A DNA stretch of 64,000 bases, from the NCBI GenBank assembly GCA_019059635.1, contig JAGVRJ010000007.1, positions 2,108,001 through 2,172,000 of the forward strand, given 5' to 3'. The DNA is from Proales similis. Lineage: Eukaryota > Rotifera > Eurotatoria > Ploima > Proalidae. Below, in pieces: positions 49,190-59,460 of this stretch (position 1 is the stretch's first letter; every line of letters starts with the position of its first letter). Below the pieces are notes generated by a model that searched no databases, was not told where the DNA came from, and saw only the letters and a program-made list of their open reading frames with translations. The translations under genes and the position numbers were made by a program.

Positions 49190-50530
49190 CTACCGGCTCT
49201 CTTCTCCTCTTCTCAATTAAGTTTCTTCGGCGATCGCAGCCAATTTGTGTATGAGGCGTATAACTCGCTTTAGTTTGCGTCTTGCTGTTGCCATGGTGAC
49301 CACCATTCTCCCCTTCTCCCTCTCTCTCTCTCTCCCCCGTTAAGGACTTCTTTCCAACTTGTCTTCTGATTAAGACTTGCTCGTCTCCAAATCCAAATGC
49401 GCTTTAATTCAAACTACTTTGCAACAGTTTATTTCAACAGGCCCTAAACTGTCCAAACCAACCAATAGTTAGATTTTCGATTTTTTAACAAAATTGAGGC
49501 AAACGTTTGGAAAGATTGCGAGCATGTGACCGAGACAATTGGTGGCAATAGCCAAAAGTCCAAGCATTGTGAGGCCAGGATAGGCATAGAGCCCGGCAAA
49601 TGAGAGTCGTCGATTAGATAAGAAAATTGGGGGCAAGCAAAAGAAACGGCACGAGCACTGCTACAAGTGCTCTATCAAAGCATTCTCCCTCCTTTTCACC
49701 TCTCTCTCTCTCGCTCCCCTCCTCTCTCTCTCTCTATTGGTCCCATTGTCTTTTCTTTTCCACTTATCCTTTCACTCTCTAAAGCTTTCGCTCGATGGCT
49801 GCCGCTGACGCACGCTTCTTTTCGCGAGCAGGCTTGATAAGAAGGCTTGAGCTGCATCTCCTTTCGCATTAATTCTAATTAACCACTTTTCTCGTTCGTT
49901 TCTTTTGCACTGTTCGCACTGGATTGCTTTGCCAAGCATGTTAATGAACATTGAATGGAGAGATCGAAAAACACTGCCTGAAGGTAATGAAGCGTTTGGC
50001 GTACTTGCTGCCGATCGTCGTTGGCATTTGCCTCGTTTACAGCCGCTAAGATCGAAACCAAGATCGACTGCAGATTAGAATAGCTGATGTACAGACTTGA
50101 AATAATGAAAAGTGTTGCGCGTCTCTATCATTCCGTGAGCCTCTACTGAAAAGTTACTCAAAGAAGAAGAAGAAGCGGAGAAGGAGAGTAAGCGCTAAAA
50201 TATAATTTATTATTCTGACCGCTCGCTAGCGCGTCTTGCTTATTTCGCTGTAAATTAATGGAATATGAACGAGTGAGCGGGAGAGAGAGAGAGAGAGAGA
50301 GCAGAAGCATTGACGACCCAACCAACGAGTCATAATGGAACATTTCGGCCCAGAATAAAATTCGCATTTGACTCACATTTGCGCTAGTTGAATGCATTGC
50401 AATGCAGCTAACAGGTCGCACTCTGGTTTGATTCTAGTTCTCCGTTTGTGCTCCCTCTGTGTGTCTTGTCCTAATTGTCAGACTTGCTTTAGATCAGGCG
50501 ACGGTCGAGCCAATTTAGATCGACGATATA
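49190..50530. other. Divergent upstream region of CFAP53 and SLMAP
   Basis: About 1.3 kb without recognised genes. It contains CT microsatellites (49311-49339 and about 49691-49735) and a GA microsatellite at 50281-50302. Possible 5' UTR exons of SLMAP could lie here, but nothing marks them. Confidence 0.5.
50281..50302. repeat. GA microsatellite
   Basis: A pure (GA)n run of about 20 bases upstream of SLMAP. Confidence 0.8.
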
Positions 50531-53002
50531 ATGACCGTAGTGATGGAGGAGGACGCCTTCTCTGCTTCCCTGTCGTCGCTGTCGACACTCTCGCCTCAGT
50601 CGCACTTTGCTTCCATGCTCGAGCCTCGGGACACGTCCTATTCCTCAATGGCCAACGACCTCTCTACTTCGCCATGCTCGCAGCAGTCTAATCAGGCCAA
50701 CCACTCGCAACTTCAACAAAACGGCTACGGACTGACTGCGGACGCCTCGGACAACTCTCCGTTCGCCGTGTTCATATTTCGCACAAACGCCAACTCAAGC
50801 AGCGGCGTGTCAAACAGCGCTGAGCCGTTCGAAGAGCGACGCATCGGTCTGGAGAAGCCGTGCAAGATCGGCCGCTCGGTGGCCAAGGTGAAGCCAGAGC
50901 CCAACAATGCAATATTCGACTGCAAAGTGCTCTCTCGTAATCACGCTCTCCTCTGGTACGAGAACTCAAAGGTCAGCTCTCTCCGTCCGTCTCTGCTGCT
51001 CAAACTGACTCACTCTGTTCTGTTTTCTAGTTTTACCTTCAAGACACGAAAAGTTCAAACGGCACATTCCTGAACGGCAATCGCCTTGGCAAGAGCAACG
51101 AGGACAGCGCACCCTTCGAGCTCAACTCGGGCGACATAATTCAGTTCGGCGTCGACGTCACCGAAAACACCAAAAAGGTCACTCACGGCTGCATCACTGT
51201 CGAATGTCGGCTCTATCACCGGTCAGGTGTAGAGGCGATTAGCCGCACGTAACTTGCCCTCCGCTGTCCGCCAGCCTCAATCTCTCTAAGCGAACGCTTC
51301 TTGAATAGACGAGACACAAACAAGATCGACGTGCAGTCGCAGGAGATCTATCAGCTCTCTCTGTTCCTGCAGGAAGCGCTGATGAGAGAAGAGCTGCTGC
51401 ATCAGAAGCTGGAAACATTGCAGAGTTTCGTCGAGCAAGCCAAAGGAATGAGCGAGAACGGCTGGCTGGTAAGCACAACCTCATTGGCCCTCCTTCTCTA
51501 CCCGGGCCGCTCTAATGCAACCGTTCATGTAGACTTTGATCGAAGAAGATCGCCTCTTGTCGCGCATCGATTTCCTCGAAAAGCAGCTGTCGCAAAAAAG
51601 CAAAGTAGTCGCTAGCAATCGAGTCTCTAACTTGCGCTCATTTGTTTTTTTTTTATTCGAAGCAACAGACTCCGGACTGTGTGGACGAGTGCGTACAAAC
51701 TCTGCGCGACGAAAAGCTCCGCGTGGAACAGAATGCCAAGGTGACTTGTCTTGCTGCCAGTGTTTGCTGTGTAAATGCCTCTGAAACGAGAAACGAAACA
51801 GAAACGAATGGAAGAGCTTATCGACGAGAAGAACACATTGAGCGTCGAGTTGGATCAGACAAAAGCGCAATTCGAGTCAAAGAGCCAGGAATGTGAGACG
51901 CTGCAGCGTTCGCTTGAGGAGACAAAAGAGAAGCTGCTCGAGCTGGCCGAGAGGCATCAGAACACGCTGCAGGAGATGCAAGAGGCCAGCGCACAGGCGG
52001 ACGAGAAATGCCTCAAGCTGACCGAACGCATCGGCGAGATTGAACAAGAAAAGAGACAATTGGACGAGCGTCTGGCCAAAATGGCCGAACACGAGCAGAG
52101 CTTGAACGCCCAAGTTGAGTCGCTCATCGCCGAACGAGACTTTCAAGAGAAGCGAGTGCAAGGCATGTTGGCCAAGATCGACGAGTACAAAGCCCAACTC
52201 AGCCAATCCGTTCAGACGCCAAAGTCGGACGCAACTAGTCAAGAGCTGAAGCAAGAGAAAATCGGTAAGAGCCTCTCACTTGATTCCGCTATTCAATCAT
52301 GGCGTTTGCTCAATCTTTGTTGACGTCATTAAAGAGTTGAACGAGCACGAGCTGGATGAACCCAAGTCCGTTGAGCCTGACGAGCAGCTACTGCGTCAGC
52401 AGGTCAAGTCAGTCGAAGAGGAGAACGCGCGACTGATCGAGCAAATCGCAAGTTTAAATTGTAAGTCTGAGCTCAAGGAGATGTTTGCACGGCACTCGTT
52501 TAAAACAGCTACCCAAGTGAACATTGCTCAACATCAGTCGGACAAGCTGAGCGCTGAATTGAGAAATGAGCAACTCACTTTAGAAATTGAACGAGTGAAG
52601 AATGAGAACGATAGAAACGAGAAGCTGCTCGACGAATTGAAAAGCCAAATTGAACAGCTAAAATCTAGACTAAACGAGCAAACTGAGCAAACGCACGATT
52701 TCATGACCAAGGACTCGAGTGAGCAGGCTCAGTCGGCGCCCGCGACGAACGCGTCCGGCGTTGAGCAGCCTCAAGTGAATTCAGCCGAAAAGCCAGAGGA
52801 AGAGCAAACGGCCCACGAGTTGTCCACTTTAATCAAAGACGAGCCAGATGAGAGCAAAGAACTCGAAGCGAGGCTGGACGAGCTCTCGCTTCGCGCCAAC
52901 ATTGTCTCCTACGTGTCAGCGGTTCCACTCATCGTTCTTGTGTTCGCAGTTCTGGTCGCCTTTTATCCAACTCTTTCGTATCTAACCGTCACGGACCGAT
53001 GA
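50531..53002 (+). CDS. SLMAP: Sarcolemma membrane-associated protein (FHA, coiled coil, tail anchor)
   Basis: About eight exons. A serine/glutamine-rich N-terminal tail of 75 residues precedes the FHA domain: KPCKIGRSVAKVKPEPNNAI, FDCKVLSRNHALLWYEN, FYLQDTKSSNGTFLNGNRL and SGDIIQFGVDVTENTKKVTH. The phosphothreonine-contacting residues (GRS, SRNH, SSNGT) are intact. Then come EIYQLSLFLQEALMREELL, EDRLLSRIDFLEKQL and a long heptad-rich coiled coil. The C-terminus is a tail-anchor helix, VSYVSAVPLIVLVFAVLVAF. SLMAP is a STRIPAK subunit whose FHA domain binds autophosphorylated MST/Hippo kinases and restrains Hippo signalling. Membrane anchoring places it at ER, nuclear envelope or centrosome. 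The ATG at 50531 is the first in frame; MEED four codons on is an alternative. Confidence 0.95.
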
Positions 53003-53319
53003 GTCGCATGTCGCAAACCAGCCGCTCGTCTGTACATATAAGTTAAGAACCCGTAGCCCATCTGCGCTCGCCTTTTACCACACCCCTAAGAACGTAAACA
53101 CCAGCGGCAACGGCGAGTGCACCACAAACAGCGGCTCCACAACCATCAAACTTTCTAAACATTCTCGAATGCTTTAAAATAAATATATTCACCAAAGCGG
53201 AGGTCAAAATGGCTCGTCGGGAAAATGTTGAAGGAAGCTGGTTAATTATTTGAATTCGGGTCTAAAACATCATCAAACAGCCGGTTCTAGAGCAGGCATT
53301 TCTCGCGGACGGCACTGGG
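53003..53319. other. Convergent 3' gap, SLMAP and ABCB6-like gene
   Basis: An AATAAA at 53178-53183 probably ends SLMAP. No minus-strand consensus signal was found between the ABCB6-like stop and SLMAP. Confidence 0.5.
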
Positions 53320-56300
53320 CTAATTTATTGTGCCGGTGACGTCATAAAGCTTGCTCACGGACCAAAGCTTTTTACTCGAGTCGGTCAGAACGAGGCAAGC
53401 CCGATTTTCACACAAGGCCTGAATGATCGAATGGACCTCTGTCCATACGTGCCTCTCAACTCTCGTCTATTTGCTCGGTTCAGTTTGATCTTGCTCTGCT
53501 GGCTTTAGCTTTCAGTTTTACCTGATCAACAATTACGAAGGGCGTGTCTCTCAGCCAGGCTCGTGCCAGTTCGATTTTTAGCTTAACCACGGCGGGCAGA
53601 GTGTTCTCTCGGCTCAGCACTGCGTCGAACGAGGTCTCAAACTGCTTGATTATCTCGTCGAGATTGGCATTCTTGGCTGCCGCTTTGATCTTGGAGAAAT
53701 CGAGCTTTTCGTCTAAATCGATTGCCGTCTACATCAGTTTGACTGGCATGATGACTTGTTGAGCCGCTACCTGGAGAGCCGTAGGAAATGTTGAAGAGAA
53801 AGCTCTCGTCGGCAATCACCGACGCGCCGTTGATAAGCGTCAATTTATCCCGAATAGACGACGCTTCGATCTGATCGAGGGCCAGTTTCACTTGAAAAAG
53901 CAAAGAAAAAATACAAAAGCAGCAGACGCAACTTACTTCAATCAGGTTCTGCTCGTCGAATTTGATCGAACCAGGCATTTTCATTTCGATCTGTTTGAAC
54001 AGTGCTGCGACGAGGAGGTCGCGGTCGTGGCCTAGTCAATCGTCCTGGGTGAGCACGAGCCCCGAGCTGACGAGCCCTGAGCGCACTTACCTGACAGGCC
54101 GCTCAAGGCAACCGACTGGCCAGACTCTATCTGAAATGAGAGTTCGCTCAGCTCGCCAAGAGACACGTTCTCAAATTTAATGCGTCCGCTGGTCAATTTG
54201 AACGGCCGAGAGCGGAGCAAATTATTCTCCAAACTAGACTGGTCCTTTAGCTCGTCCATGAGCCGAGCCGTGTTGTTGTACGCGTCCTTCATGTCTCTTG
54301 TTCATAGAGCGCGATTAAATTGTCGGAATAAGATGCCGTTCGAGCAATGCCTCACTGGTAATAGGCGCCGAACGAGTTGAGCGGGAAGTAGATGCGGAAC
54401 ATGAAGCAAATGTAAAAGATAAAGTCGCCAATGTGAAGTCCGTCCTCGTTCTGTGAGATGAGCCAGCTCAAGTAGACAAAGCCGGCCAGGATGCTCGTGC
54501 TGGTCGTAAAGTTTTGCACAAGTCGAGTGACAAAGTCGCTCCTCTCGATCGCAGTCTCTTGGTCCTTTTTTTTTGGTCAATCGACAGTTCTGGGGGATCG
54601 AAAAGACCAGTTACACTTACCAGCAGATGCTTCAGTCCGAACAGACTGCGATTTGACTCGAGGCCGATCGAGTTGTAACGCTGAGCCATGGGCGCCCAGC
54701 TCAGCGTGCTTCTCAGCTTCTTGTCGAGTTCCTGTCTCATCTGCTCGACTTTGGCCTGTCGATGTCGGGCCTGCTTGCCCACCACTCGGGTCAGTTCTAA
54801 ATACAATCGGTTAGAGTTCTGAATTTCCATGGCTCGAGTTGCGCGCTTACTGGTGAAAACGAACACGGAGAGGAAGACTAGAATTCCGAACCACATGTTG
54901 AGCTTCCACGTGAAGTAGACGATCGCAATCAGCGAGTCGAGCAAAATGGGCAATATCTCGAACATTGAGTGCCAAATCAGCTGGTCAGCAGCCTTCACAT
55001 TCTTTTTGATCTGATTCACCGAGTCGTCTATATAGGCCGACTCGTGCAACAGCAGCGGCTTTCTCAGCTCCGAGTGGATCATTCGGGCGAACAAAGTCAA
55101 ACGAAAGCTTGTCTTAACGTGCCGCCAGCAGAAGGAAAGCAAATTGTGCACAAAGCTCAAGTCGAGAAATAAAACGATCACCAGACCGAGCAGGATGCCG
55201 ATCGGAAACTCGATTCTCTGAGCCACTTGGCCACCGTCCTGGGTAATGTTGGACAGCTTGCCAGACTTGAGCTGATTGACTGTTGTGAAACGTGAACCAT
55301 CCAGTCAGCCATGTGTCAATGCCTTCAATTCTAAAGCGATGGCTTACCTGTCAGCTTGAGAAAATAGGGCACCGCCACTCCTGTGAGCCGAAGCGAGAGC
55401 ATGAGCAGGAAACTTGCGATCGCAGCGAGCACTACACCACTCTGCTCAGAGGCAGTGGCTAATAGGAACTTCAATACTCGCTTTAGACGCCTGAACGGGC
55501 CTTCGCTGGGCTGAGCGGCAATCTATTTCGATTCGATTTAAGCTGGCTTATTAAGGCGACCAGGCAGTTAAATACCATGAGGCCGTAGCGACGAAGAGGC
55601 ACGCCCGGCGCATACAATGCAATCGCAAATAGGCCCATGGATGCAAAGTAACGAAAGAGCCAGAGGCCGAGGCGAATCTGATTCTCCAGACTGTTCGACT
55701 TGTGTTTTACTTTCGGACTTGTGTGCGAAGAGTCGAGGACGAGTTACCCGTTCAAATTCCAGAACCAGTTGTCGCTGCTGAACGAGACCAGGGAGATGTT
55801 TTGGTTGAGGAATACGAGCATCCAGAATATCTGTGCGCGAGCAGCAAGTGTGACGAAATCGTCATCATCGAATTGATATCAGTCAGAGACGAAATAAAAA
55901 CGAAATAATTTTCAAAGTCACACAGACCAGCACGATTAGGCCATGGCCACGTGACGGAATGCTCGGCATTGTCTTGTTGCTCTCGATGTAAATCAGGCAA
56001 AGTGAAATGATCCAGCCGAGCGAGCTCAGCGAACAGTTCAGGATCAGGTAGCCGTAGAACTAAAGAGTTGCACAAATCGATTGGTTGACGGCAAGAGGAA
56101 CGAGCCAAGGAGCCCTGACTACCTGGTTCTTGTGGATTATGGTGGTCTCGGCCGCCAGTCTAACCGAGCTCTCCAGCAGCATGAGCCAGGTGAGCAAATA
56201 TTGCAGCTTGAGATAGAAGCTGCGGTTGAGATACTCGCGCTCGACGCTGTATGAATATTTGCTGGCAGGCGAGGGGCGCTCTTAGTAGGAAGGCGACTAC

Positions 56301-56464
56301 TCAGCGAAGAAAAGGCAGACTCACCCGTAGAACCATATTTGAACGAGTCCGAACAGACAGACAAAGGCGAACGGCACCAAGTCAATCAGGGAGTAGAAGA
56401 AGCACTGGGTGAAGCCGTGGTCGAGCCACACCTGAGCGAACGAGTCGTTTGGGGCACAGAACAT
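53320..56464 (-). CDS. ABCB6/HMT1-like half-transporter with degenerate ATPase domain
   Basis: Around ten exons from the ATG at 56464. The N-terminus (VWLDHGFTQCFFYSLID) matches the ABCB6 start, followed by an extra membrane domain (TMD0). A six-helix ABC membrane domain follows, with SELRKPLLLHESAYI, FEILPILLDSLIAIVYF, LNMWFGILVFLSVFVF, and DFIFYICFMFRIYFPLNSFG. The nucleotide-binding domain begins IKFENVSLGELSELSFQIE. However, Walker A reads ALSGLSGHDRDLLV (no GKST), the Q-loop reads TLINGASVI, the signature is LSRENTLP instead of LSGGE, Walker B is FVIVDQ without the catalytic glutamate, and the H-loop histidine is replaced (LVLTDSSKK). The chain stops early after the H-loop region. All these segments are joined by in-phase GT-AG introns, so the frame is intact. 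ABCB6 relatives export porphyrins or metal conjugates; this one should not hydrolyse ATP alone. Confidence 0.85.
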
Positions 56465-56606
56465 GGTCTGTTAAGCTAAATCAGATCGGTGAGAGAAGCA
56501 CAAGTGTCGCGCTCTAATGCAAATCTGAGTACTCATTTGACGAACGAACGAGACTACACACGTAGTCGCAGTTTGACAAGCGAGTGCACCGTCTGAGCGA
56601 TCAAGC
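56465..56606. promoter_or_regulatory. 142-bp divergent promoter, ABCB6-like gene and COG4
   Basis: The two start codons face away from each other with only 142 bases between them, so the genes must share or abut core promoters. No TATA box is apparent. Confidence 0.5.
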
Positions 56607-59460
56607 ATGAGTGCGGCCGAGAGCACCAGCAAAGCGAACGATCTCCAGCAGGAGTACGAAGCTCTCTATGCCAAAGAGGTGAGCTACTCCCGTCCGCTCG
56701 GCCCCTGTCTCTGTGGCTTCTAACTCCTAGCCGCAGAAAAGGTTGGACAGCGAACTAGAGGCGCTTCTGAGCAACCAGCGGCCTTTGCAACTTAAGTTCG
56801 ACTCTCTCCAGCACACCTGGTCAGTGCAGTTGGCAGCCCGTTCTGGCCTCTCGTTCTCAATACTGGCTCGTAAATTAGCGAAAATCTGACGCTCATCTTT
56901 CATGACGCCCAGAATCTGTCAAGCATGATCAACTTCACTAGCCAGCTGGCCGACCAAGTGAGCAGCAAAGTCAGACAGCTTGACTTGGCCAAGGTAGGAA
57001 CCCGTGTCCCAGCCAGTCGGGGACGGCATCTCGATCTCACCGATCTCAAATTTAAAGGGCCGCGTGATGAGCTGCGTAAAACGAGTGTCGGACATTCTCG
57101 ATCTGAAGGCGTGCACTGACGGCGTAAAGGAGGCGCTTCAAGAAGAGGACTATGAGACGGTGAGTCACTCGCTGCTCTTCGTTTAGATCGTTTGAGCATA
57201 TTTGGCTGAATCAAGGCGGCTAGACACATTCACAAGTATTTGAGCTTGGACAAAGAGTCACTCAGACTCGGCTCGGAAATAAACGATCCGAGCGAGAAGA
57301 ACTTTTTGGACCACTCGTTTGATCTGCTGCAGGAGTCGAAAGAACGACTGCAGCGAATTGTCAACGAGCGCTACGATGCAGCGGTCGACCGCGACGAAGT
57401 GCCCGAAATGGAGCGTTTCTTTAAGATATTTCCACTGATCGGCCTGGCCGAGAGCGGCCTGCTCAAGTTCTCTAACTATTTGTGCAAGCAAATAAAAACG
57501 ACCGCGGACGAGAACTATCGGCAGCTGGTGAATGCGCAGCCGAACGCGGACGTCAGATGGAGCGTTCAGTTTGCTGACGCGTTGATGATCCTGTTTGAGA
57601 AAGTAGCTCGCACGATCGAAGCCTACCAGCCGCTGATTCAGGCCGGCTACGGACAAGGGCACATGTTCACATTCATCAGAAACATCCAAGGCGAGTGCGA
57701 CTCGCAGAGCAAGCGCATATTCCGTCAATTCAAGCAGATCAGACAGGTGGACGAGCTGCTGCGCAACGTGCGTCAGTCGGTCGGCATGAGCGCCTACTCG
57801 CGAATGAGCAGCAGTTCGGGCGGCGCAGCACGAGACGAGCGCCTCGATCCCAGACAACTGGACGAGCTCCTGACCGAAATGACTCTTATCAGCGCTCGCT
57901 CTCAGTTGTACAAAAACTTTCTAATTCGAAGCATAAAGCAAGACGCCGAAGCTGGCCAGACCGACGAACTCAAGTACGATCAGATTGCAGTGGACAGATT
58001 CATCAACCAGTCCGAACTCGAGCGTGCTGTTCAAGAGCTAATCGGACAGTACACAACTTTGGAAAACTATTTTATGAGCGAAAATGTGACCAAAGCGATC
58101 CAGGTCGACTCGATAATCGGCGAGTCGCTCACCTCCAGTGTGGTCGACGACACTTTTTTCATCATCAAAAAGTGCATCAAGTTGGTTGCAACTCCATTTT
58201 TGGTCTCTCGATTCCTCTTAATTTGTGGCCAAAGGCGAAGCTTATGCACCGACAATGTGAACGGCTGTTGCGCCATGCTCAACAACTGCTCGTCGCTGCT
58301 CGAGTCAAGCTACAAAGAGCAGTTCTTGAGCAAATTGAAACTGGGCTACGCCACTGGCTTTGATATAACACAGGCGATTCAGCGCCGATTTCAGAACGCG
58401 GCCGAACAAATCGAAAAGCAGGGCACCAATTTCCTTGTAATTTCTTTTCCCTCTCTCACTCCTGGTCCTTGTCTCAGGGTCTCTTTAATTTCCATTTTTA
58501 GGTCACATTGAACAACATTGAACGCTCAATCGAGTGTGTCGACTCGCTCAAGAGCTCGTTGAAAGAGGACATTCAGAAGCTGTTCGGGGCCGAGAGCGAC
58601 ACTTCCAAGCAGAAATTAAGCGTAAGTCTCCTGTCGGCTGCCTCGTTCACTTGGTGACCGTGTCATTGTTTGAACAAAGGCGTGTCTCGATGAGCTCGAG
58701 TCTGTATCAGCTCGGCTCAAAGAGCTCCAGCAGTTCGGATTCGATCAGCTCAACTCGAGCGAAATTAGACCCAAGATAAAGCAATGGTGCGAGGCGTACG
58801 TCAGTACAAGTCACAAAATAGACGAGGTAGGCGCCTCAATCTGATTGCCTGTTGACAAACTCGGCTCCAGCGATGGGCGAAAATCACGCAAAAATGACTG
58901 AAGGAGGAGCTCGACGACTACGAGACCAATGACCCGTTTGTGCAGAATTTTATTCGAAACATCGACCAGATGTTCAAGGCGCTTAAGGACAATCTCTCGG
59001 AAAAGAATCGCGAAGCGTTGACTGCCTCGTTGGCCAATGAGATTGCCACCTACCTCGAGCGAAGCATTCTAAAGTGCTCTTTCTCCAAGGTGAGCAATCT
59101 AGCAATAGTCCGAACCAACTCGCGATCTGATCACTTTTGAAGCACGGTGGCCTCCAACTTGACAAAGAGCTCAGAATGCTCACCAACTATTTGACCAGCC
59201 TGACCTCTTGGTCGGTGCGCGAAAAGTTCACCAGATTGAGTCAAATGAGCATTTTGCTTTCGCTCGAAACCCTGCCGGAGCTGTTCGAGTATTGGAACTC
59301 TCCAATGGCCATCACATGGCGTCTCACTCCGAACGAAATAAGACAAGTTTTATATCTAAGGTCAGAGGACGATGTTATTTATCTGCTTTTTTCTCCGCTT
59401 CAATTCTTTGCTTTCAGGAGTGACTTTAGAGCCGACGAGATCAGAGCTCTCAAACTCTAA
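56607..59460 (+). CDS. COG4: Conserved oligomeric Golgi complex subunit 4
   Basis: About nine exons, one of 1.0 kb. The N-terminal region has [37 protein letters not shown] and [19 protein letters not shown], matching the COG4 signature blocks. Then follow [50 protein letters not shown], and [18 protein letters not shown]. The C-terminus reads [37 protein letters not shown] and [18 protein letters not shown]4 belongs to lobe A of the COG tethering complex for retrograde Golgi traffic and binds SNAREs and Sly1. A serine/glycine-rich loop near 57800 is lineage-specific. The start at 56607 is close to a divergently transcribed gene. Confidence 0.96.

Follow-up and report, generated by a model that had tools for sequence, protein, structure and literature searches.

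The window analysed here, a 64,000-nucleotide stretch (C7:2108001-2172000) of the genome of Proales similis, a tiny marine monogonont rotifer, carries an ABCB6-like gene on its minus strand, predicted from the genomic sequence alone and running from 56464 to 53320 (Table 1). Its 14 exons join into one 787-residue frame with no internal stops through 13 introns of 30-97 nt, all of them GT-AG, in agreement with the in-frame joining claimed in a preliminary description of this DNA. The weakest splice assignment is that of intron 11, where an alternative upstream acceptor leads to an in-frame stop; the acceptor chosen gives a gap-free alignment with the Q-loop region of ABCB6. Intron 4 (55747-55718) is the smallest of the 13, at 30 nt. 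Some 140 bp (56465-56606) separate the start codon from the first ATG, as read from the sequence, of a divergent COG4-like gene; it is possible that the ABCB6-like gene and this Golgi-trafficking gene share a promoter in that interval. On the downstream side, the plus-strand neighbour at 50519-53002 reads as SLMAP-type from its sequence, with a long coiled coil and a C-terminal hydrophobic anchor, and its FHA match scores 17.6 bits, under the cut-off of 20.7.

Table 1. Features of the ABCB6-like locus, in window coordinates.
Feature	Position	Strand	Basis or remarks
Whole ABCB6-derived pseudo-ATPase gene (putative)	53320..56464	(-)	14 exons, 787 aa; exon model, human ABCB6 match, PF16185
TMD0, residues 1-212	55576..56464	(-)	With Cys3, Cys21 and sequon NDS at N6
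TMD0 exons	56464-56325, 56261-56123, 56059-55928, 55830-55748, 55717-55576	(-)	
Linker and core TMD, residues 213-560	54242..55522	(-)	Exon model, domain identities
Linker and core TMD exons	55522-55348, 55279-54851, 54796-54621, 54564-54356, start of 54296-54091	(-)	
Degenerate NBD, residues 577-787	53320..54193	(-)	PF00005 27.7 bits, cut-off 25; motif alignment
Degenerate NBD exons	Remainder of exon 10, 54031-53937, 53870-53771, 53712-53522, 53466-53320	(-)	
Former Walker A GLSGHDRDL, residues 608-616	54015..54100	(-)	Interrupted by intron 10 (54090-54032)
Former signature to Walker B	53522..53599	(-)	LPAVV 53599-53585; VIVDQ 53536-53522
COG4-like gene part, divergent neighbour	56607..58511	(+)	PF08318 235.7 bits over 57210-58508; start 56607 read from sequence

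ABCB6 is a metal and porphyrin pump. The membrane part and architecture of the Proales gene had been likened to ABCB6/HMT1 in the preliminary description, an assignment that profile, structure and tree comparisons now uphold. The N-terminus of the predicted protein matches MTABC_N (PF16185; 192.3 bits, E 1.3e-56), and its top match among solved structures is human ABCB6 (7ekl, residues 2-767, E 2.9e-52), the best match other than ABCB6 having an E of 1.6e-27. The ABC_tran match (PF00005) is weak, PF06472 scores 15.5 bits against a cut-off of 24.4, and PF00664 was not reported at E<=1. Like ABCB6/HMT-1 of human, C. elegans and bdelloids, the Proales protein has the order TMD0-TMD-NBD, a TMD0 of the MTABC_N type and an N-terminal cysteine pair; C3 and C21 occupy the columns of human C8 and C26, which form a luminal disulfide in the human protein. 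The sequon at N6 is an N-terminal N-glycosylation site, and the human ABCB6 N-terminus is glycosylated (PMC4410673).

Unlike ABCB6/HMT-1, the Proales protein has lost the A-loop, Walker A, Q-loop, signature, Walker B glutamate, D-loop and H-loop. The comparison was made with eight intact ABCB6 proteins, seven of which cover the H-loop column, in an alignment that used 10 of 18 ABCB6 relatives, the others being partial or near-relatives of included rows. The intact Walker A, GPSGAGKST, is replaced by GLSGHDRDL, and the A-loop tyrosine by E. At the Q-loop Q becomes G, the signature LSGGEKQ becomes LPAVVKL, and at the H-loop H becomes D. Walker B changes from LLDE to IVDQ, keeping the aspartate and losing the glutamate, and the D-loop changes from SALD to TRVE with a deletion of two residues, which comes after VIVDQ and spans intron 13. 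Past the H-loop column the Proales protein has 19 residues and that of Brachionus rubens 32, in comparison to 56-78 in the intact rows (n=7), so that the Proales tail is 37-59 residues shorter than in these seven. The losses described earlier for Walker A (no GKS/T), the Q-loop glutamine, the Walker B glutamate (VIVDQ) and the H-loop histidine, along with the early truncation, all recur in this alignment. Loss of LSGGE also stands, but the replacement then named, LSRENT, aligns with GERGLK just before the signature, and it is LPAVV that takes the signature position. Likewise, the span given for the domain, 53320-54150, holds most of the NBD, which actually begins near 54193, at residue 577. 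None of the features that mark an active ABCB6 (Walker A, signature, Walker B glutamate, Q-loop and H-loop) is retained in Proales. The residues that hydrolysis requires are thus missing from the predicted protein, which strongly suggests that hydrolysis is lost; all nucleotide binding has likely gone as well.

An artefact of gene model or assembly that masks an intact NBD would also produce such an alignment, and the reliance on genomic sequence together with the ambiguous intron 11 acceptor could be held in its favor; it is, however, barely credible. A scan of the three minus-strand frames of 53000-56800 found no G..G.GK[ST] and no LSGG, and hence no hidden P-loop exon in that interval, and the introns are just 30-97 nt. 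Exons restoring GKST or LSGGE, which the preliminary description had named as the finding that would count against it, are thus absent from the genomic scan of this interval. The sole GK[ST] in these frames is a GKT at 53522, at an exon end and out of frame, while one SGGQ (54786) and two AHR (55838, 55388), all in the part encoding the membrane domains, fall out of frame or where an intron ends. Furthermore, a degenerate Walker A, Q-loop and signature are found in all three protein records from Brachionus, which also argues against an artefact.

A protein database search scored 7998 candidates and returned 13 matches at E<=0.001, of which the three best were these Brachionus proteins (B. rubens, 806 aa; B. 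plicatilis; B. calyciflorus); the other ten, ABC proteins of other kinds, were left out of the analysis. TMD0 searches with a B. rubens query and a bdelloid query added 15 more ABCB6 proteins from Adineta, Rotaria, Didymodactylos and metagenome sources. A precomputed PF00005 label is carried by none of the three Brachionus proteins and by 13 of the 15 other relatives, the two without it being the short records P0016 and P0024; in the bdelloid relatives the NBD is intact. The Brachionus proteins (P0001-P0003) resemble that of Proales in their degenerate NBD and conserved TMD0, with 30-33% identity to it, but their motif columns are filled by other replacement residues. Walker A reads GCSAYEIKK, GCSPLEIKK and GCTSHEIEK in the three proteins, and the signature FDPEELL, FTPEELL and FTQEDLI, so that the former P-loop differs even between Brachionus species. 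Walker B reads IINE and the H-loop residue is N in the B. rubens and B. calyciflorus proteins; unlike Proales, these two lose the Walker B aspartate and keep the glutamate, and they have a two-residue Q-loop insertion and a longer C-terminus. Walker B, D-loop and H-loop lie outside the coverage of the B. plicatilis record, which stops short of Walker B. The two-residue deletion after Walker B is common to Proales and both Brachionus records that cover the site and is seen in none of the eight intact proteins, which favors a single loss before Proales and Brachionus split. The database names of the three Brachionus proteins ('ABCB7-2' for B. rubens, 'sub-family B member mitochondrial', and one unnamed) make no mention of lost motifs. 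In the B. calyciflorus record (P0003), residues 1-187 are labelled PF00078 (reverse transcriptase) and fused to the ABCB6 relative, and part of the TMD is missing; both are probably gene-model errors. Mean AlphaFold pLDDT is 61.4 for the degenerate B. rubens protein and 61.2 for an intact bdelloid control, and the top Foldseek match is human ABCB6 (E 3.9e-28), which at such pLDDT adds little over sequence.

A tree of 17 rows, including 12 of the 18 ABCB6 relatives and three ABCB7/9/10-like genes of Proales, grouped the monogonont proteins together (100/100) on the ABCB6 side, with long-branch warnings; the ABCB6 rows were separated from the three ABCB7/9/10-like outgroups at 93/94, a value that was not starred. 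In trees built from single domains, monogonont and bdelloid proteins were joined at 98/94 on TMD columns and at 75/86 on TMD0 columns, and NBD columns left this grouping unresolved (AU p 0.289). Monogonont monophyly from TMD0 columns only had 75/80. NBD branch lengths were 1.22 for the monogonont stem, 2.11 for Proales and 1.6 for Brachionus; the bdelloid stem was 0.18.

The preliminary description had also called for a search for a second, intact ABCB6. No such gene with a TMD0 was found in the assembly (32,716,893 bases in 15 contigs): the PF16185 profile matched only the ABCB6-like gene itself, and among the 57 matches of a canonical bdelloid ABCB6 query none outside that gene touched query residues 1-243, the TMD0. 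The searches ran exon by exon, the bdelloid query with 52 of 69 candidates scored and the three strongest matches classified, so the absence of a second ABCB6 is strong, not absolute; an intact ABCB6 lacking TMD0 could conceivably be among the remaining matches of this query. The BUSCO score of Proales similis is 95.7% (PMC11954553). The three strongest intact relatives lie on contigs C11 (ABCB9/TAPL-like), C12 (ABCB7-like) and C2 (ABCB10/8-like), the names of those on C11 and C2 being a reading of their sequences, and none of them was accepted as an intact ABCB6 paralogue. Among the best 60 of 187 matches, the C12 NBD piece has its top scores with transporters that carry two NBDs, like ABCB1/ABCB19; among half-transporters it reaches 282.8 bits with ABCB7 and 221 with the best ABCB6 entry. 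Two ABC_tran matches at G000:C2:1575480-1575899 and 1581370-1581789, both of 121.4 bits and about 5.9 kb apart, may reflect the recent duplication in tandem of a different ABC gene.

The distribution of constraint along the protein differs from that of intact relatives. Between human and Adineta, both intact, identity is 47/202 (23%) in TMD0, 161/321 (50%) in the TMD and 139/197 (71%) in the NBD; between Proales and B. rubens this usual order is inverted, with 103/204 (50%), 91/325 (28%) and 51/202 (25%), TMD0 being highest and the NBD lowest. TMD0 is thus conserved more than the NBD between Proales and Brachionus, unlike in ABCB6/HMT-1. Within Brachionus the order of TMD0 and TMD is not inverted (B. 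rubens and B. calyciflorus, TMD0 135/162 or 83%, TMD 243/291 or 84%, NBD 158/230 or 69%). The zero windows at 1-25 and 376-400 are due, in part or wholly, to the B. calyciflorus record, whose N-terminus was trimmed and which lacks a stretch of the TMD.

Substitutions in the degenerate NBD were compared with null models that take a living protein as their starting point, allow no stops and apply a single mutation scheme, and in which changes before and after the loss are indistinguishable. In the differing NBD columns of Proales and Adineta, the BLOSUM score was -0.04 in comparison to a neutral -0.80 (sd 0.12), and hydropathy correlation was 0.52 in comparison to 0.18, with 0/200 nulls as high in each case. 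Across four NBD comparisons (Proales and B. rubens, each with two intact references) no null in 200 reached the observed BLOSUM value, and for hydropathy the numbers reaching it were 0, 0, 0 and 1. On total alignment score the result for Proales is less striking: against the two references, nulls equalled its NBD in 21 and 3 of 200 cases, and its TMD in 0 and 85 of 200; no null equalled the B. rubens NBD. Between B. rubens and B. calyciflorus, under a null assuming 27% GC that also served for the pairs named next, the NBD aligned over 230 columns with no gaps, and the differing columns had a BLOSUM of +0.69 (null -0.48, sd 0.20; 0/300). B. rubens and B. plicatilis (144 columns) and a control pair of intact bdelloids likewise had 0/300 nulls as high. 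TMD0 of B. rubens and B. calyciflorus, with few differences, was not clearly above neutral (values as high were reached in 15 and 96 of 300 simulations). GC3 in the Proales NBD exons is 0.645, where 0.467 (sd 0.033) is expected from intron composition (0/2000); the values for TMD0 and TMD are 0.74 and 0.73. Codon bias in the NBD is below that of both. The synonymous-codon score of the NBD, 0.099, falls within the range of 0.074-0.320 from five intact reading frames of other genes, the same frames on which the score was trained.

That the gene is kept by selection and is not decaying had been proposed from the sequence alone, and the constrained, degenerate NBDs of Brachionus are the strongest new evidence for it. 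The rival reading, a unitary pseudogene in slow decay, could point to the NBD path between B. rubens and B. calyciflorus, which is about twice that of TMD0 (0.44 vs 0.24; bdelloids show the reverse), to the abnormal end of the B. plicatilis record within the NBD, and to the odd N-terminus and missing TMD part of B. calyciflorus, these anomalies of the two records being read as gene-model errors. Against it, 787 codons run without stop or frameshift, the chance that 211 neutral codons contain no stop being 2e-5 to 5e-5; substitutions preserve chemistry, GC3 is kept and the B. rubens protein record is full-length. The disabled frame and neutral substitution pattern that define a pseudogene are not seen in the Proales gene; decay is unlikely on these patterns, and a slowly decaying unitary pseudogene is a very improbable account of the locus. 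Motif-specific loss was not significant in Proales: 6/25 invariant motif columns and 34/104 other invariant NBD columns are kept (p=0.28), the corresponding test giving p=0.09 for B. rubens and p=0.04 for B. calyciflorus. Since motif columns are not lost significantly more often than other invariant columns in Proales, the whole NBD seems to have been released from catalysis and held to its chemistry. With the motifs lost, the gene intact and the same state in Brachionus, a former pump has probably been kept for a different job.

In an ABC dimer, one NBD contributes Walker A and Walker B to each ATP site and the opposite NBD contributes the signature. With neither Walker A nor signature in the Proales NBD, no complete ATP site could form in a homodimer or a heterodimer. 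The idea of a heterodimer partner, raised in the preliminary description, is therefore disfavored in its active-transport form, in which the protein would be a subunit of an exporter driven by ATP hydrolysis in an intact ABCB7-, ABCB9- or ABCB10-like half-transporter. Intact genes of these three kinds are present in the assembly (the ABCB9 and ABCB10 names by sequence reading), the pseudo-NBD is constrained, and TAP and TM287/288 are heterodimeric ABC exporters with one degenerate site. In these, too, catalytic residues of an ABCB-type NBD are partly lost; nevertheless, Walker A survives in each of their subunits and one of the two sites is complete, whereas the Proales subunit contributes neither Walker A nor signature to any such site, and both composite sites would be broken. 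The C-terminal 43 residues of C. elegans HMT-1 are needed for self-interaction and cadmium resistance (PMC6077975), with self-pairing the only kind of pairing tested for them, and most of this stretch is gone in Proales, which also weighs against an ATP-driven heterodimer. Such a partnership is unlikely.

An ATP-independent channel, carrier or flippase working through the retained membrane domains is also improbable. CFTR, an ABC protein working as a channel, is a precedent, and eight hydrophobic segments exceed the threshold in Proales, four lying within TMD0 and the other four early in the core TMD. However, no segment over threshold was called past residue 419 in Proales or 423 in B. rubens, unlike Adineta and human, each with one core-TMD segment past the corresponding point, and identity in the core TMD is 28% between Proales and B. 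rubens vs 50% between human and Adineta. Moreover, an aromatic residue at human W546 is a feature of active ABCB6 (PMC10514269); this column holds Ser in all four monogonont proteins and W, F or Y in the five intact rows printed.

The account we favor, with somewhat better than even confidence, is that the Proales gene, the only ABCB6/HMT-1 orthologue found, probably lost its ATPase before Proales and Brachionus (Monogononta) diverged, in an ancestor that both share, and has been kept as an ATP-independent membrane protein led by TMD0. Between these genera TMD0 is conserved best, followed by the chemistry of the remaining protein. In human ABCB6, TMD0 is an independently folding unit that is itself targeted to lysosomes, ATP hydrolysis does not require it, the core alone remains at the plasma membrane, and K629M allows ATP binding and blocks hydrolysis (PMC4410673). 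By analogy with human and worm ABCB6, TMD0 would place the Proales protein in the endolysosomal membrane, where its most likely function would be as a scaffold, adaptor or receptor acting through TMD0 independently of ATP, the TMD and folded pseudo-NBD perhaps serving as a structural or docking platform. SUR1 and SUR2 are ABC proteins that are not transporters, and their TMD0 serves as a hub for interaction and targeting, as does that of TAPL. The principle proposed for Proales would be that of TMD0 in SUR1/SUR2 or TAPL, minus ATP-driven transport; unlike the Proales protein, an ABCB6, SUR1/SUR2 belong to ABCC and TAPL is ABCB9, and the NBDs of SUR1/SUR2 and TAPL bind nucleotide. Overall, the earlier interpretation stands as to ABCB6 descent, loss of hydrolysis residues and selection; its signature alignment does not, and an active heterodimer is weakened.

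What is new here is a degenerate ABCB6 kept in Proales and Brachionus, with TMD0 as the best conserved domain and no second ABCB6 TMD0 found in the Proales assembly. Judged by titles and the openings of abstracts, none of the papers listed in literature searches deals with a degenerate rotifer ABCB6, subscription-journal papers on rotifer ABC families lying outside this scope, and the search for a pseudo-ATPase or pseudoenzyme ABC transporter returned no match. There is perhaps an even chance that the single ABCB6 of monogononts represents a new class, a half-transporter pseudoenzyme that does not bind nucleotide, with TMD0 as the functional unit and a folded NBD as a structural dock; if true, it would be a natural separation of the TMD0 function of ABCB6 from its transport function. 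With the ATPase given up and TMD0 kept, these rotifers offer a natural experiment in which the role of TMD0 would be one apart from ATP-driven transport, and no protein interacting with human ABCB6 TMD0 had been found, according to the authors of PMC8313675. Loss of heme synthesis was considered as a cause of the ABCB6 loss and rejected: of the eight enzymes of the pathway four were searched, and all four (ALAD, UROD, CPOX and FECH) have matches in the Proales genome, so the loss seems not to follow from one of heme synthesis. A probable heme maker thus seemingly manages without ATP-driven ABCB6, which bears on the need for ABCB6 in porphyrin import.
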